Of a DNA stretch of 21,255 nt, positions 5,645 to 11,040 are shown piece by piece (positions within the stretch are counted from its first letter, which is position 1; each line of letters opens with the position of its first letter). The notes under the pieces were generated by a model. The model had not been told where the DNA came from. It was given only the letters and a program-made list of their open reading frames with translations, and did no database searches. Source of the stretch: a virus; IMG/VR virus record IMGVR_UViG_3300027714_000157, positions 1 to 21,255 of that record; one strand, written 5' to 3'. The position numbers and the translations under genes are program-made.

Positions 5645-5657
5645 AAACTAAAAATAG

Positions 5658-5702
5658 CCAACCTGAAACACGGTTGGATTTTAGGACCGTTTTAGTTAAC
5701 GG
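5658..5702 (+). other. Hairpin-rich spacer downstream of nrdA
   Basis: CCAACC (5658-5663) can pair with GGTTGG (5672-5677), and CCGTT (5687-5691) with AACGG (5698-5702). A competing pairing, CGGT (5671-5674) with ACCG (5686-5689), overlaps both. With the strong terminator hairpin at 5706-5739 this makes a compact structured 3' region. It may stabilise the nrd message or be a small RNA; no known RNA family is recognised. Confidence 0.4.
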
Positions 5703-5705
5703 CAC

Positions 5706-5745
5706 GGGGTAAGAAAAGGTTCGCTACTATTCTTACCCCATTTTT
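5706..5745 (+). terminator. Terminator after nrdBA
   Basis: A perfect 10-bp stem, GGGGTAAGAA (5706-5715) with TTCTTACCCC (5730-5739), is followed by A and five T (5741-5745). It separates the reductase operon from the accessory block. The 14-nt loop is larger than usual. Confidence 0.75.
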
Positions 5746-5749
5746 ATGT

Positions 5750-5758
5750 AGATATATA
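5750..5758 (+). promoter_or_regulatory. AGATATATA late-like promoter candidate, copy 1
   Basis: AGATATATA directly after the nrd terminator matches the motif upstream of the genes at 7192, 18046 and 19190. It is only 5 nt before the ATG at 5764, whereas the other copies are 23-29 nt before theirs, so either that gene is nearly leaderless from here or the signal mainly serves the gene at 6003. Confidence 0.35.
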
Positions 5759-5763
5759 AGTAT

Positions 5764-6000
5764 ATGAAATTTAACGATAGAGATTTAGATAGAATTATAG
5801 AAATGGCATGGGAGGATAGAACTCCTTTTGAAGCTATTGAATTTCAATTCGGTATTAAAGAGAACGATGTTAGAAAGATAATGAGATCTAACATGAAAGA
5901 ATCTAGTTTTAAATTATGGAGAGAAAGAGTCAAAGGTCGTAAGACTAAGCACTTAAAATCTAATCCATCTACAAGATTTAAATCACAAAATCAAAAATAG
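5764..6000 (+). CDS. TIGR03643/DUF2805 family protein (78 aa)
   Basis: The sequence RIIEMAWEDRTPFEAIEFQFG, then ENDVRKIMRSNMKESSFKLWRERVKGRKTKH, matches the small bacterial family TIGR03643 (DUF2805), frequent in Bacteroidetes and Proteobacteria chromosomes. The residues look like a helix-turn-helix (FEAIEFQFGIKENDVRKIMR) followed by a basic tail, so nucleic-acid binding is plausible but not established. The family is better known from cells, which suggests acquisition from a host. Its TAG lies 2 nt before the ATG of the next gene, so the two are co-expressed. Confidence 0.8.
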   Translation: MKFNDRDLDRIIEMAWEDRTPFEAIEFQFGIKENDVRKIMRSNMKESSFKLWRERVKGRKTKHLKSNPSTRFKSQNQK

Positions 6001-6002
6001 AT

Positions 6003-6596
6003 ATGAAACACATAAAATTATACGAAGAGTTTATTAACGAAGCGACTAGCGGTGAATTAATAAAACCAAAGAGAGGTAAAATTACACAGTTTAATCATAA
6101 GAAATATCCAGAATTATCTGGAGAATTCTTTGACTTGATCTCAACAGCATACGCTGCAATTGGAGGACATGCAAAGATTAAATCTCCGGAAGATGTTTTC
6201 GCAGATCCAGATTGGAATTATTGGGAAGGACTAGATATTCACGGAGATGAAGATTTCGATATGGTAATGTTTGGTAAAAAAACTAGATTTGGTGTAAAGT
6301 ATTCAGGAGTTGGCCATGACGGAAGTTCACCAGCAAAGAGAGAATACATAGCAGCTCGAGGTAGGGATCTTAATAAGTTAGGATTTTACATTGAAGTTTC
6401 AGGTAAAATAGCAGAGATATTATTAGATTCATATAATGTACCTGTAGTTAGTAATGAAGATGAAGTTGAAAAAGTATTAGGTAAAAAAGTAGATTGGATC
6501 GGAATAAAAGAAGGATCACCCGGAACAGGATGGTATTCTAGAAAGTTAGGTGGTAAAATGCACGACAAGATATTATTAGGAAGACCTAAAATTTAA
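6003..6596 (+). CDS. Candidate capsid-targeted internal protein 1 (197 aa)
   Basis: The N-terminus MKHIKLYEEFINE|ATSG belongs to the family shared with the genes at 7192, 7636, 8297 and 8583. It resembles the T4 internal-protein capsid-targeting sequence MKTYQEFIAE|A, with an (I/L)xE|A site at residues 11-14 (I-N-E|A), the type cut by prohead protease gp21. The rest (residues 14-197) is a soluble mixed alpha/beta domain with WNYWEGLDIHGDEDFD, GVKYSGVGHDGS, FYIEVSGKIAEILL and a C-terminal GWYSRKLGGKMHDKILLG; I cannot assign an activity. There is no membrane segment. A terminator follows. Packaging and cleavage are inferred from the motif. Confidence 0.8.
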   Translation: MKHIKLYEEFINEATSGELIKPKRGKITQFNHKKYPELSGEFFDLISTAYAAIGGHAKIKSPEDVFADPDWNYWEGLDIHGDEDFDMVMFGKKTRFGVKYSGVGHDGSSPAKREYIAARGRDLNKLGFYIEVSGKIAEILLDSYNVPVVSNEDEVEKVLGKKVDWIGIKEGSPGTGWYSRKLGGKMHDKILLGRPKI

Positions 6597-6610
6597 AAAA
6601 TTAAAAATAA

Positions 6611-6642
6611 GTGACATAAAGTTTTTTTATGTCGCTTTTTTT
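6611..6642 (+). terminator. Rho-independent terminator
   Basis: A 10-bp stem, GTGACATAAA (6611-6620) with TTTATGTCGC (6626-6635, one G-T wobble), is followed by seven T. The promoter-like sequence 6636-6664 begins in its T-tract, as at 27-80. Confidence 0.85.
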
Positions 6643-6664
6643 GTTTATATTTACATATAACAAA
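6635..6664 (+). repeat. 30-nt intergenic repeat, copy 2 (copy 1 at 51-80)
   Basis: Perfect 30-nt match to 51-80. The identity starts at the last hairpin base and ends 14 nt before the start codon. Confidence 0.85.
6636..6664 (+). promoter_or_regulatory. Candidate promoter linked to terminator (copy 2)
   Basis: Identical to 52-80. TATAAC (6656-6661) lies 17 nt before the ATG at 6679, the same distance as in copy 1. Likely drives the hydrolase ORF as a unit separate from the upstream accessory genes. Confidence 0.5.
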
Positions 6665-6678
6665 CAAATAAGATAACG

Positions 6679-7611
6679 ATGAAAATAGCTTACTTACATG
6701 GATTAGAATCCACAATCGATCAAAAGGATCCAAAGATTCAATTTTTAAATAAAAGTTTTGAAAAGGCGTATATGCCATCTATAAACTATAAGGATAATAA
6801 AACTTTTGATAAGTTATACAAGAACATTAAATCATTAAATCCAGATCTTATTGTAGGATCTTCAATGGGAGGATATGTTTCTTATTTAATTGGAAGCAAA
6901 TTATCAATTCCAGTTCTTTTATTTAATCCAGCAATGATTGGTAGGACATTCGATCCTGTTGTTGATGATTCAGGTTTAAAAAAGACTAGAATCGATATAC
7001 GATTCGGTAAAGGTGATTCAGTAATTATAGGAAAGGACGTTAGATCTTTCTTTAAAGAGAACGGAGTATCGTATAATCACACAGGATATGACGGAGGACA
7101 CAGAGTTCCCACTGATGTATTTATTAATAGTATTAAAGAAGTGCTAGGAATGAATGAGATATATAATAAAACAGAAAACAGTCAACTTAAAATGAAACAC
7201 ATTAAACTATTTGAAGATTTCACAAGAGAAACTCAACACGAACAAGATTTTGCAGGGATGCAAGCTGATAAACTTGGAATAACAAGAGAAGAATACACTG
7301 CTCATTATTTAAGTGAAGCAAAAGCAGTATCTGCAAAAAACGAACCTTTCAAAGTAAAGGGAATAGGATTTACATACACTGAACAACAGGGTAAATTTTA
7401 TGGAGCTTATTTATATGATGTTGCAAAAACATCAAACGTAAATCATAAAGTTAAATTTGGATTAGACGAAATACAGTCTTTTCTAAAATCTATTAAAATC
7501 ACTGATGAAGTACCTTATTATTATGAAGAAAAAGAATTAGATGCTTTATGTAAACAAATAGCAAAAAAAGGTATTGTATGTGATCATGATGACGCAATGG
7601 ATATATCTTAA
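6679..7611 (+). CDS. Alpha/beta hydrolase fused in frame to a capsid-targeted protein (310 aa)
   Basis: Residues 1 to about 158 form a small alpha/beta hydrolase of the YqiA/UPF0227 esterase type: N-terminal YLHGLES, nucleophile elbow GSSMGG (S62), LLFNPAM, a candidate acid in FGKGDS (D113), and H141 in GGHRVP. At M172 the frame runs without a stop into MKHIKLFEDFTRE, the same leader that begins the neighbouring proteins. The hydrolase ends naturally around residues 158-170, so the long frame is either a true fusion or a hydrolase gene that lost its stop next to a separate gene starting at 7192. The second reading is favoured by a promoter-like 17-mer at 7157-7173. A terminator and repeat-linked promoter precede this gene. 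Confidence 0.75.
   Translation: MKIAYLHGLESTIDQKDPKIQFLNKSFEKAYMPSINYKDNKTFDKLYKNIKSLNPDLIVGSSMGGYVSYLIGSKLSIPVLLFNPAMIGRTFDPVVDDSGLKKTRIDIRFGKGDSVIIGKDVRSFFKENGVSYNHTGYDGGHRVPTDVFINSIKEVLGMNEIYNKTENSQLKMKHIKLFEDFTRETQHEQDFAGMQADKLGITREEYTAHYLSEAKAVSAKNEPFKVKGIGFTYTEQQGKFYGAYLYDVAKTSNVNHKVKFGLDEIQSFLKSIKITDEVPYYYEEKELDALCKQIAKKGIVCDHDDAMDIS
7157..7173 (+). promoter_or_regulatory. AGATATATA late-like promoter candidate, copy 2 (inside ORF)
   Basis: AGATATATAATAAAACA is identical over 17 nt to 19158-19174, upstream of a probable structural gene. It lies inside the hydrolase-fusion frame in the poorly conserved linker region; AGATATATA ends 26 nt before the ATG at 7192, compared with 23 and 29 nt at 19190 and 18046. 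This supports a separately expressed gene at 7192. Confidence 0.55.
7192..7216 (+). repeat. 25-nt leader repeat (second copy at 7636-7660)
   Basis: The first 25 nt of the coding sequences at 7192 and 7636 are identical and encode MKHIKLFE. Related but diverged copies open the genes at 6003, 8297 and 8583 and the remnant at 8971. Nucleotide identity suggests recent duplication or gene conversion of the leader, separate from the unrelated cargo sequences. Confidence 0.8.
7192..7611 (+). CDS. Candidate capsid-targeted internal protein 2 (139 aa, internal start)
   Basis: Nested in frame at the end of the 6679-7611 frame. It begins MKHIKLFEDFTRET, and its first 25 nt are identical to those at 7636. 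Position 13 is R-E|T with Thr at P3, not I/L, so it is a poor protease site; the next match is YLSE|AKAV at residues 40-44, which would give a 42-residue propeptide. The remaining domain (FKVKGIGFTYTEQQGKFYGAYLYDVAK, then FLKSIKITDEVPYYYEEKEL) looks like a compact alpha/beta fold of unknown function. The choice of this start rests on the shared leader and the upstream 17-mer. Confidence 0.6.
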   Translation: MKHIKLFEDFTRETQHEQDFAGMQADKLGITREEYTAHYLSEAKAVSAKNEPFKVKGIGFTYTEQQGKFYGAYLYDVAKTSNVNHKVKFGLDEIQSFLKSIKITDEVPYYYEEKELDALCKQIAKKGIVCDHDDAMDIS

Positions 7612-7635
7612 TATTAAAACTAATTAAAACTAATT

Positions 7636-8283
7636 ATGAAACACATTAAACTATTTGAAGCCTTCTTAAATGAAGCAGTTTCTTTTGATAAAAAAGGAAT
7701 CAAAGCTAAATTAGAAGATAAAGTTAGAATCGCTAAGATCGCCGTTGAAAAATGGGGCGGTAGTTATAAAAAAACTTTAGCAGAAGTTGAAGCAGCTGCA
7801 AAATCTGGTAAGTTACCAAGTTATAGAGAACCTTTAATGGTCCAAGGTGACGAAAAACAAGATGCATATGATATATTCCAAGGAAGAAATGCTAATCAAT
7901 TAGCAGAAAAGATTTCTAAAGTAATTAAGAAATATAAGAAATATGAAGTTGATCAATCTTCAACTGGCGCAGCTGGCGGATGGTCTGGTTCAATGAGATC
8001 TACTGTAGGTGGAGAAATTAAAGGTCGGGCAAACTTTAATCCAGGTGGTAGAAGAGATTTCTTAATCGCAGTAACATGCGGTAGCGGTATCGATTCAAAG
8101 ATTAAAGACAAGATGTTCCAAGAAATATATGAACTAATGTTTGTATTAGATCAATATAACTCATCGGACGGCGGTATTATGTTTGATCATTCATCAGGAA
8201 CTAACTATGACACGATTGGATTAACTAACGATAGTTATCAATTTAGTAACGGTAGTCAACTAATGCAAATAATGAATACATAA
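7636..8283 (+). CDS. Candidate capsid-targeted internal protein 3 (215 aa)
   Basis: N-terminus MKHIKLFEAFLNE|AVSFD fits a prohead-protease site L-N-E|A at residues 11-14. The predicted mature part is Lys-rich and helical up to about residue 95 (KAKLEDKVRIAKIAVEKWGG, then QLAEKISKVIKKYKKYEV), followed by a Gly/Ser-rich segment (STGAAGGWSGSMRSTVGGE) and a mixed C-terminal region. No enzymatic motif is recognised. The leader DNA is preceded by a tandem 10-nt repeat (ATTAAAACTA at 7613-7622 and 7623-7632). It starts 24 nt after the preceding gene and probably shares its transcript. Confidence 0.8.
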   Translation: MKHIKLFEAFLNEAVSFDKKGIKAKLEDKVRIAKIAVEKWGGSYKKTLAEVEAAAKSGKLPSYREPLMVQGDEKQDAYDIFQGRNANQLAEKISKVIKKYKKYEVDQSSTGAAGGWSGSMRSTVGGEIKGRANFNPGGRRDFLIAVTCGSGIDSKIKDKMFQEIYELMFVLDQYNSSDGGIMFDHSSGTNYDTIGLTNDSYQFSNGSQLMQIMNT

Positions 8284-8296
8284 ATATAAAATAATT

Positions 8297-8563
8297 ATGA
8301 AACATATAAAAGTATTTGAACAATTTGTATCGGAAGCAAACAATATCTCACAAGAAGGTTACTCGTTAAATCAATTAGCAGATGGTCAAATTGGAGGAGT
8401 TCTAGCTACTGAATTTCAAAATGAACATGATTTAGATATCGATGATATCACAAGAGCTATTACTCACACTAAAGAAATTACTAGATACGAACTTAGAGAT
8501 ATTATTAATGGTACTGCTCCAAAATCAAAGATTAAAAGTTTTTTAAAACAATATACAAAATAA
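8297..8563 (+). CDS. Candidate capsid-targeted internal protein 4 (88 aa)
   Basis: N-terminus MKHIKVFEQFVSE|ANNIS again has the leader; the candidate cut is V-S-E|A, with Val in place of Ile/Leu at P3. The mature part would be about 75 residues, largely helical and acidic in the middle (NEHDLDIDDITRAITHTKE) with a basic C-terminus (KSKIKSFLKQYTK), similar in size to small T4 internal proteins. Function unknown. It sits 13 nt after the previous gene and 19 nt before the next. Confidence 0.75.
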   Translation: MKHIKVFEQFVSEANNISQEGYSLNQLADGQIGGVLATEFQNEHDLDIDDITRAITHTKEITRYELRDIINGTAPKSKIKSFLKQYTK

Positions 8564-8582
8564 TAAAAATAAAGTAACTATA

Positions 8583-8966
8583 ATGAAAAAAGTACAATTA
8601 TTCGAAAATTATATAAATGAAGCGGCATCTTTTGATGTATTAGTTAATGAGCCTTTTGATATAAAGGACGAGAAAAAAGCACAGAAGCAATTTAAGATTG
8701 ACGCGAAACCTATCACAATGGTAGATGCTGATGGAGAAATTACAGAAGATATGACGGATGTAACTGTTGTTTTTAGTAATGGGGATTCTGCAAGCTACAC
8801 ATGGGAGCAAAACTTCGGTAACTCTAGTAATATGGTTATTTCACCAAAAGGATCATCAGATATTGACGTTACTAATCAAATAGAGAACTATCTTGGTTCA
8901 ACAGGTACTGTTATTGGAGATATTGGATTAATCTATAAAGATTGGAAACTAGGAAAAATCAAATAA
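8583..8966 (+). CDS. Candidate capsid-targeted internal protein 5 (127 aa)
   Basis: N-terminus MKKVQLFENYINE|AASFD is a diverged form of the leader with the site I-N-E|A intact at residues 11-14, which suggests the protease site is what is kept. The remainder is acidic and beta-rich in appearance (ITMVDADGEITEDMTDVTVVFSNGDSASYTWEQ), unlike the other members. Function unknown. A seven-residue remnant of the same leader and a terminator follow. Confidence 0.75.
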   Translation: MKKVQLFENYINEAASFDVLVNEPFDIKDEKKAQKQFKIDAKPITMVDADGEITEDMTDVTVVFSNGDSASYTWEQNFGNSSNMVISPKGSSDIDVTNQIENYLGSTGTVIGDIGLIYKDWKLGKIK

Positions 8967-8970
8967 TAAT

Positions 8971-8994
8971 ATGAAACATGTAAAACTACACTAA
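8971..8994 (+). pseudogene. Vestigial leader MKHVKLH-stop
   Basis: ATG at 8971 encodes MKHVKLH followed by TAA (8992-8994). The first six residues match the MKHIKL leader of the upstream genes, after which the terminator stem begins. It looks like the stump of a sixth family member whose cargo was deleted, though a seven-codon chance match in AT-rich DNA is possible. Confidence 0.5.
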
Positions 8995-9020
8995 ACCAGG
9001 ACTTCAATCCTGGTTTTTTT
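8993..9020 (+). terminator. Terminator ending the internal-protein cluster
   Basis: CCAGGA (8996-9001) pairs with TCCTGG (9008-9013), extended by AAA/TTT to 9 bp, with loop CTTCAA and a run of seven T (9014-9020). It separates the MKHIK block from the clamp gene. Confidence 0.9.
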
Positions 9021-9026
9021 ATTTTT

Positions 9027-9054
9027 GAAACTTTTTACTTATTTTGTTTATAAT
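9027..9054 (+). promoter_or_regulatory. GAAAC-N17-TATAAT promoter, copy 2
   Basis: GAAAC (9027-9031) and TATAAT (9049-9054), 17 nt apart, lie just after the terminator and 30 nt before the clamp start. The downstream ACCTAAATA resembles ATCTAAATA after the copy at 20006. Likely drives clamp, polymerase C-half, UvsX and the following genes. Confidence 0.65.
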
Positions 9055-9084
9055 ACCTAAATATAATTAACAAATCTAAAAAGT

Positions 9085-9840: not shown

Positions 9841-11040
9841 ATGTCGGATATAACACAACTACTAGAGAAGCCAGAATCTGAGCTTAGTGATGCTGAAACA
9901 AGGGACCTTATTGAACACTATTCAATGATGTCTGCGAAATACACAGCGTATGAGCAAGCAGTTAAAGTAACATTAAACTCGATTTATGGTGCCTTTGGGA
10001 ACAAATGGTTTCACTTCTTCAATTTAGATATTGCAGAATCAATTACAATACAAGGCCAAGGAGCAATCCTTTATTCTGAGAAAATATTGAATAAGTACTT
10101 TCAAGATTTCTGGATGAAAGATACCGCAGTACATGAGTACTTTAATATTAAGGTAGTTAATAAACTTGTAAAACCATCAGTTGTTTATATCGATACAGAT
10201 TCTTGCTATGTTCAGTTTGAGGAAATGTATGAATCTATTGAATGGCTTGGAGAAAAGCTAACAATTGATAAGTTCATTATGAGACTATACAATTTTAGAA
10301 TCAAAGACTATATTACAAAGTGTATGGCAAAGTACGCTGAAACAACAAATACAGATAATTTCTTGTATTTTGATTTAGAGACTATTGCATATTCAGGTAT
10401 TTGGTTAGCTAAAAAGAAATATTTACAAAACATAGCCTGGGAAGATAAGCTTGATGAAGAAGATAGATATCCAACCTTATCTAAAATAAAAACGATAGGG
10501 TTTGATACTATTCAAAGTTCAACACCAGCAGTGGCTCGTAAGCATTTAACAGAAGCACTTAAATTAGTATTGTCTGAAAAACCAACATCCGATCTTCTTA
10601 AGAAATTAGTAGAGTATTTGAAAAAATGTAAGAAGGAGTTTAAGCTAGTTGACGTTGATCAGATTGCATTTAACAAAAGAACTAATAATATTGAGAAGTA
10701 TATCGTTGATGACACTATCGAGTTCCAGATTGGTTCTAAGTGTCCTCCTAATGTTAAAGCAGCAGGATTCTATAATTTCTTAATGAATACCAATCCTAAA
10801 TACAAGAATAAGTATAAAATGATTGGTAACGGAGAGAAGTTAAAGTTATATCACTGTAAACATTCAACTTGTGATATGTTCGCATATATGCCAGGAGATC
10901 ATCCATATGAGATAGCACCAGAGATTGATTATGAACTTCAATTCGAAAAGAGTGTAATTGATCCTTTAAATAGAGTATTGAAAGCATGTAGTTTACAGAC
11001 TCTAAATAGAAACTTAATTTATTCAACATCATTATTTTAA
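9841..11040 (+). CDS. 43B: DNA polymerase family B, C-terminal half (gp43B-like)
   Basis: This 399-aa protein completes the polymerase at 1270-2667. Motif B is KVTLNSIYG (K42, N46, Y49, G50) and motif C is YIDTDS (D118, D120), the catalytic aspartates that join D379 of the first half. Further C-terminal palm and thumb segments match T4 gp43 (KSSTP-like QSSTPAVARKHL; a KC-P segment 'GSKCPPNVKAAGFYN'). Its first ~40 residues (SDITQLLEKPESELSDAE and onward) fall where T4 has the fingers tip, so the split is in the fingers hairpin. The C-terminus ends STSLF, recalling the SLFDMF clamp-binding end of T4 gp43. ATG follows the clamp stop by 3 nt, suggesting coupled synthesis with the clamp. Confidence 0.9.
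   Translation: MSDITQLLEKPESELSDAETRDLIEHYSMMSAKYTAYEQAVKVTLNSIYGAFGNKWFHFFNLDIAESITIQGQGAILYSEKILNKYFQDFWMKDTAVHEYFNIKVVNKLVKPSVVYIDTDSCYVQFEEMYESIEWLGEKLTIDKFIMRLYNFRIKDYITKCMAKYAETTNTDNFLYFDLETIAYSGIWLAKKKYLQNIAWEDKLDEEDRYPTLSKIKTIGFDTIQSSTPAVARKHLTEALKLVLSEKPTSDLLKKLVEYLKKCKKEFKLVDVDQIAFNKRTNNIEKYIVDDTIEFQIGSKCPPNVKAAGFYNFLMNTNPKYKNKYKMIGNGEKLKLYHCKHSTCDMFAYMPGDHPYEIAPEIDYELQFEKSVIDPLNRVLKACSLQTLNRNLIYSTSLF

Follow-up and report, generated by a model that had tools for sequence, protein, structure and literature searches.

Why should open reading frames (ORFs) that lie side by side in one viral genome, and encode unrelated proteins, all begin with the same short peptide? The question is raised by a stretch of 21,255 bases (31% GC), hereafter the window, taken from the IMG/VR record IMGVR_UViG_3300027714_000157 and carrying T4-type genes. 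The interval between its nrdA and sliding clamp genes comprises DUF2805, five ORFs that share the 13-residue leader MK[HK][IV][KQ][LV][FY]E.[FY]..E in front of unrelated bodies (the cargos), and one leader remnant. An earlier note on this DNA had likened the leader to the capsid-targeting sequence (CTS) of the T4 internal proteins. Our analysis, based on sequence comparison and on analogy with T4, indicates that the leader is very probably a capsid-targeting, cleavable propeptide of the T4 CTS type.

A conserved peptide with a predicted cut site

The ten residues MKTYQEFIAE are enough for incorporation of T4 internal protein IPIII, and mutants have shown that residues 4 and 7 of this sequence govern its targeting and residues 8 and 10 its processing (PMC9026906). 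Y4, F7, I8 and E10 of T4 correspond, with the same spacing, to [FY]7, F10, [VIL]11 and E13 of the leader, and the likeness claimed by the earlier note therefore holds at the four experimentally mapped positions. The five leaders are present at the starts proposed there (6003, 7192, 7636, 8297 and 8583), each scoring 29-39 bits with a position-specific scoring matrix (PSSM), and so is the sixth, remnant leader. The E↓A sites (the arrow marks a candidate cut) also proved to lie at one position in four straightforward members, where alanine follows E13. In the fifth, 7192, the possible site is L40-S41-E42↓A43 (YLSE↓A, at 7317/7318), and this protein seems similar to T4 IPI, which has a longer leader ending ITE↓A. 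The body of 7192 is found directly behind a leader in one relative, G001 (L and G numbers are our handles for relatives), where the sequence reads MKHVQLFEQFVSE↓AKAIS.

In seven sequences, 107 ATGs of ORFs of at least 50 residues scored above 10 bits with the leader PSSM; among shorter frames, none of 32,316 opening ATGs did, and no leader-scoring ATG was seen in 40 dinucleotide shuffles of the window. Since the PSSM was trained partly on these proteins, it is the short-frame and shuffle controls that carry the weight, and they rule out a chance likeness of the leaders. When proteins were selected solely on leader residues 1-7 (n=93), 84 had F10, 81 had E13, and residue 13 was the end of the first [ILV]xE in 79; the P1' residue in these seeds is mostly A, K, S or G.

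Conservation of the leader as DNA, whether as a recombination seam or as a translation-start element with the peptide being unimportant, was considered as well. Cassettes plainly recombine, bare leader remnants occur at island ends and codon bias is seen at residues 2-6 (AAA, CAC, CTA), all of which would suit such an element. However, apart from this bias near the start, synonymous variation is found at every varied position, amino acid exchanges are conservative (I/V, F/Y, H/K), residues 10-13 are conserved away from the start codon, and [ILVMF]xE is retained at junctions that have no start codon (see below). Given these observations purely DNA-level conservation is unsupported, and we regard it as hardly credible.

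Internal junctions and polyproteins

Cargos that stand behind the leader in one genome occur inside longer ORFs in others. We compared 90 distinct junctions that have no Met-leader with random positions in these ORFs. In 68 of the junctions [ILVMF]xE is found no more than 3 residues from the cargo start, as against 18.3% of the random positions, and a stricter motif is found in 55, as against 7.5%. These counts overstate the number of events, because the junctions are phylogenetically non-independent and several share a cargo family; the motif nonetheless recurs across many unrelated fusions. For example, a fused cargo in G011 reads LTNE↓AKSEVYPEE and its counterpart behind the leader in G004 reads INE↓AKSEVYPEE, and similarly a fused ESFMNE↓AKDSTRDE is matched by a leader-borne FVNE↓AKDATRDE. 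Fused cargos lack the leader's front half and retain its cutting half, as would be expected if one targeting tag suffices per polypeptide. The fused forms thus separate the targeting half of the signal from its cutting half, in agreement with the T4 mutants.

Families of ORFs of 450-1000 amino acids were also seen in L108, L124, L142, L151, L227 and other relatives. They open with MNFNQFLNE or MA..NKIKSFKSF and carry repeated ESVVNEA-like sites, and the MNF start resembles the spacing of T4 YQEFIAE.

Head genes of the relatives

The earlier note had proposed to look for a gp21-type protease and for a related leader on other prohead components, and both were found in the relatives. Peptidase_S77 (gp21-type) scores above cut-off in 15 of 18 long relatives, and in the nearest contigs too. 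The order of the head cluster is portal, an acidic leader gene, a fusion of the S77 protease with scaffold, and the major capsid protein; where complete, the S77 gene is one open frame of ~615-690 amino acids with an acidic, coiled scaffold-like part. The acidic gene between portal and protease bears the leader or a variant in every cluster read, and it starts MKHVKLFEQFHSLDE↓A in a contig whose UvsX is 99% identical to that of the window and whose DNA matches the window's right end at 90% identity. The scaffold part is enriched in the cut motif in four genomes, with 9-11 occurrences of the strict form as against 2-3 in shuffles.

These findings bear on the possibility that the leader targets proteins elsewhere, such as the membrane or the replication site, or regulates stability, its T4 likeness being convergent. 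Leader residues 1-6, having no close T4 counterpart, would be compatible with this, but the presence of the leader or a variant on the portal-protease gene and the conservation of the cut motif at fused junctions make it very unlikely.

Examples of the fused protease-scaffold ORF are L100 4337-6184 (G003 24337-26184) and L132 12108-14165 (G009). A second, smaller S77 match (132-aa frame) was observed far from the head cluster in the 234-236-kb relatives L096, L097 and L098.

Sphingomonas phage PAU, whose capsid protein is related (31% identical), has a leader of its own, MK[TS][LI]xxL[YF]E, with 16 forward matches and 0 in a backward control. Both gp142 and gp154 bear the PAU leader and are labelled 'internal capsid protein' by the depositors, who also annotated capsid features. 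The mature PAU capsid protein, as N-terminally sequenced, has 520 residues (PMC5646251); its LME↓N site would give 521, an inexact agreement, one residue off.

Cargo families, their scale and their exchange

The UvsX relatives amount to 80 loci. Sampled contigs contain 428 unique leader proteins (165 cargo clusters, 100 singletons), and in 144 of the 165 clusters a leader scores above 25 bits. Searched as a strict DNA pattern, the leader occurs in at least 119 stretches of IMG/VR viral contigs and nowhere in 257 Gb of bacterial and archaeal genomes, and a variant leader, MKYIQTY[KD]DFLxE, occurs in LR756500 (462 kb).

Most cargos match no family. Matches among the cargos of relatives include NUDIX, Lcl_C, ATP-grasp, a zeta-toxin-like kinase, lysozyme, PAP2 and DUF5824, and a DNA ligase stands behind a weak leader. 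By sequence matches, two further families are Acb1-like, related to inhibitors of the cyclic oligonucleotide-based antiphage signalling system (CBASS), and Tad3-like, related to anti-Thoeris proteins. Acb1 (PF23474) was detected at 31.3 and 31.5 bits against a cut-off of 27. There are 11 Acb1 matches in 47 records, nine of them with a leader above 15 bits; ahead of the domain, the remaining two have FLNE↓G (L281) and a degenerate leader ending VNE↓K (L287). Both 2H phosphoesterase HxT motifs (HCTLLYG, HMTVAYL) are kept in nearly all members. Tad3 (PF25185) was detected in the records of three relatives at 69-79 bits, again against a cut-off of 27 (E 9e-22), and two of the three proteins carry a leader. 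The suggestion that the cargos include anti-defence proteins is therefore supported for a few families of the relatives, and for none of the five cargos of the window. By eye, the body of one leader protein (L203 5421-6242, L257 1669) resembles annexin repeats (DGMGTDEDALTAAIKS).

Cargo content differs from locus to locus. When 67 loci with both flanks were compared, the window included, 22 had 1-5 leader genes between nrdA and clamp, with differing cargos, and the others had none, many of the leader-free gaps spanning just 145-240 bases. The window's cargos are absent from this island in loci with 97-99% UvsX identity. The block made up of 6003, the esterase fusion (see Table 1) and 7636 lies at a different genome position in G001 and L238, where it adjoins other leader and polyprotein genes.

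The leader might instead tether proteins to the prohead core for assembly or DNA condensation, after which they would stay or be degraded and would not be delivered as effectors. T4 IPIII and gp67 do have assembly roles (PMC9026906), the leader is present on a core-position protein, and some cargos are acidic, scaffold-like or repetitive. Such a role nevertheless fits poorly with most members, given the turnover of cargos among close relatives and the enzyme, Acb1-like and Tad3-like cargos, and we consider it unlikely as the general explanation.

Proposed mechanism and weighing of the evidence

In the CTS-type reading that we prefer, the aromatic front half of the leader (K-L-[FY]-E-x-F) would bind the prohead core or scaffold during head assembly, so that any protein placed behind the leader would be built into the head. 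Cleavage behind [ILV]-x-E by the S77 prohead protease would then release the cargo within the capsid; when the virion next infects, the cargo would leave together with the DNA and act in the new host before phage gene expression. The cargos are accessory and are swapped between variable islands, singly or as blocks, and some are joined into polyproteins in which the cutting half is all that is left of the signal. For each cargo, packaging, cleavage, injection and function are what we infer. Delivery of most cargos into the host is probable, and inhibition of immunity has about an even chance of being a major function.

Several observations weigh against this reading. The leader is three residues longer than that of T4, and its conserved K5 and L6 have no T4 counterpart. 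By synteny the window ends ~1 kb before the portal, and the protease and core gene were read in relatives. The capsid protein has a conserved KLYE↓D, a candidate cut site that falls at no column alignable with T4 gp23. One of the three Tad3-like proteins has no leader. In PAU, the depositors state no basis for their 'internal capsid' labels, and gp70, the third protein so labelled, has no PAU leader; neither form of the leader was found in Lak-A2 or in Tenacibaculum phage PTm1 (searched by the PAU form only). Lastly, a late-promoter-like motif, TATAAATA and its variants, is equally common ahead of leader genes and of other genes.

We lean slightly towards a broader proposal, in which the leader would be a general packaging code of a large, widely spread T4-like clade that pre-loads tens of anti-immunity or host-takeover proteins per virion, singly or as polyproteins, with cargos swapped at dedicated islands. 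If this is true, finding the leader would by itself be enough to predict injected anti-defence proteins from metagenomic sequence.

T4 internal proteins are injected inhibitors of restriction enzymes, few of them with a target. A tag on more than 100 cargo families in abundant uncultured phages offers a sequence handle for the proteins of earliest infection, and with Acb1-like and Tad3-like proteins behind the tag, the idea that ready-made CBASS and Thoeris inhibitors are carried into the cell becomes directly testable.

Gene context and cargos of the window

The T4-type genes of the window comprise NrdA/B, the sliding clamp, a split DNA polymerase and gp46/47-like proteins, all named by eye, together with UvsX and a tail-sheath stabiliser; the window is thus part of the genome of a T4-like phage. 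The gp43-type DNA polymerase is apparently split into ORFs at 1270-2667 and 9841-11040, with nrdB, nrdA, the island of cargos and the sliding clamp gene in between. The leader, having no match in bacterial genomes, gave no host assignment. Named phages closest in UvsX or capsid protein include the Lak phages of Prevotella and Tenacibaculum phage PTm1, and because of this a Bacteroidota host is a fair guess, and no more. The features of the island are listed in Table 1.

Table 1. Features of the cargo island in the window (positions in the window; arrows mark candidate cuts)
Feature	Position	Strand	Leader or opening sequence	Remarks
Variable cargo island, nrdA-sliding clamp	5645..9084	+		From comparison of loci with both flanks
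Leader protein 1, 197 aa	6003..6596	+	MKHIKLYEEFINE↓A	Leader codons 6003-6041; predicted cut INE↓A at 6041/6042
Open frame, 310 aa	6679..7611	+		UPF0227/YqiA-like esterase part (6679-7191), then leader protein 2 in frame
Leader protein 2, 139 aa from internal ATG	7192..7611	+	MKHIKLFEDFTRETQ	Opens MKHIKLFEDFTRET
Leader protein 3, 215 aa	7636..8283	+	MKHIKLFEAFLNE↓A	Leader 7636-7674; predicted cut LNE↓A
Leader protein 4, 88 aa	8297..8563	+	MKHIKVFEQFVSE↓A	Predicted cut VSE↓A
Leader protein 5, 127 aa	8583..8966	+	MKKVQLFENYINE↓A	
Leader remnant	8971..8994	+	ATGAAACATGTAAAACTACACTAA	MKHVKLH, then stop; read from sequence
Inverted repeat and T run at island end	8995..9024	+		Terminator-like; sequence reading only

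The earlier note had recognised no family among the cargos, and searches of the five window cargos in Pfam, PHROGs and NCBIfam gave nothing convincing, except for the esterase part of 6679 (PF05728, E 3.1e-8). An 11-member alignment was obtained for leader protein 1, and the AlphaFold model of its body has a predicted local distance difference test (pLDDT) score of 69.6, residues 1-10 (the leader) being unordered at pLDDT 34. GNAT acetyltransferases dominate its top Foldseek and VIA matches, which are weak (best Foldseek E 0.012; VIA Z 7.1, root-mean-square deviation 3.4, 125 aligned), and no sequence match to GNAT or PDB entries was found in Pfam, PHROGs, NCBIfam or PDB sequences; on this weak evidence a GNAT-like fold is predicted. 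For leader protein 3, the model (pLDDT 74.1) had no structural match, the PDB sequence search was also empty and tblastn found no relative in isolate phages; its orthologues in L238, L175/G003, L162 and L225 each have their own leader. The bodies of leader proteins 4 and 5 were found nowhere outside the window among the sampled relatives.

The earlier note had treated 7192 as a separate gene start. An ATG and the leader are indeed there; however, this ATG is internal to the open frame 6679-7611. The in-frame order esterase-leader-cargo is kept in four genomes (the window, L194, L225/G001 and L238), so that translation may start anew at 7192, or 7192 may lie within a single polypeptide; G003 has the esterase by itself, without a fused leader cargo. 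An arrangement that resembles the esterase fusion of the window was noticed in L196, L202, L241 and L274: ORFs that begin with MPSTSKAQQRLMGMAY or something close to it, and look DUF3008-like by eye, continue without a frame change into a cargo with an internal Met-leader.

Bare 12-residue leaders were noticed at L010 7532 and L012 148, reading MKHVQLFEQFIK and the variant MKYVQLFEQFIK, each ended by a stop codon and followed by terminator-like sequence, and are comparable to the remnant of the window. At L233 2414 the leader frame stops after nine residues (MKHLKLFES), at a point where relatives continue FESWINEA, and may represent a decaying gene.

Comparison with known systems

Judged by sequence, every defining feature of T4-type CTS internal proteins that is testable in this way and was examined is present. 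Like IPI, IPII and IPIII of T4, the proteins described here have a short N-terminal tag on unrelated small bodies and are encoded at variable accessory loci, and the (I/L)xE cut motif and a gp21-type protease are common to both systems. The front half of the 13-residue leader, however, differs from that of the ten-residue T4 CTS, and the six near-complete relatives have about 7-28 tagged proteins per genome as against three in T4. Unlike in T4, the tag is also found on a protein in the gp67 position, fused polyproteins occur, and the cargos include Acb1-like, Tad3-like, Nudix, ATP-grasp and kinase families. T4 gp67 and gp68 occupy the same place between portal and protease, and gp67 is likewise small and acidic; gp67 has no leader of this form, and its likeness to the acidic gene is one of position and acidity. 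Protease and scaffold are separate genes, 21 and 22, in T4, and one fused ORF in this clade.

PAU is like this clade in that many head-region genes open with a leader, several with KLNE↓A, and unlike it in the front half and in the many members that have no NE↓A end. The ejection proteins of SPN3US and phiKZ are similar in that many head proteins have propeptides which a gp21-like protease removes behind a Glu (PMC5694885); they differ in propeptides that are often longer than 100 residues and, in phiKZ, in the cut motif S/A-x-E (PMC9026906).

Ip1-3 of T4 are injected and inhibit type IV restriction enzymes, Ip1-3 of T-even phages are homologous in the leader only, and tagged internal proteins of at least ten types, with anti-restriction roles, have been reported in these phages (PMC12373910). 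A literature search gave no match to the leader string, and no report of this leader set was found in the open-access literature on CTS in marine T4-like phages. As T-even phages already have several tagged anti-restriction proteins (PMC12373910), the kind of system is known; what looks new, as far as the open-access literature goes, is the form of the tag and the scale on which it is used, the variety of cargos, the tagging of a core protein, the fusion into polyproteins and the hotspot.

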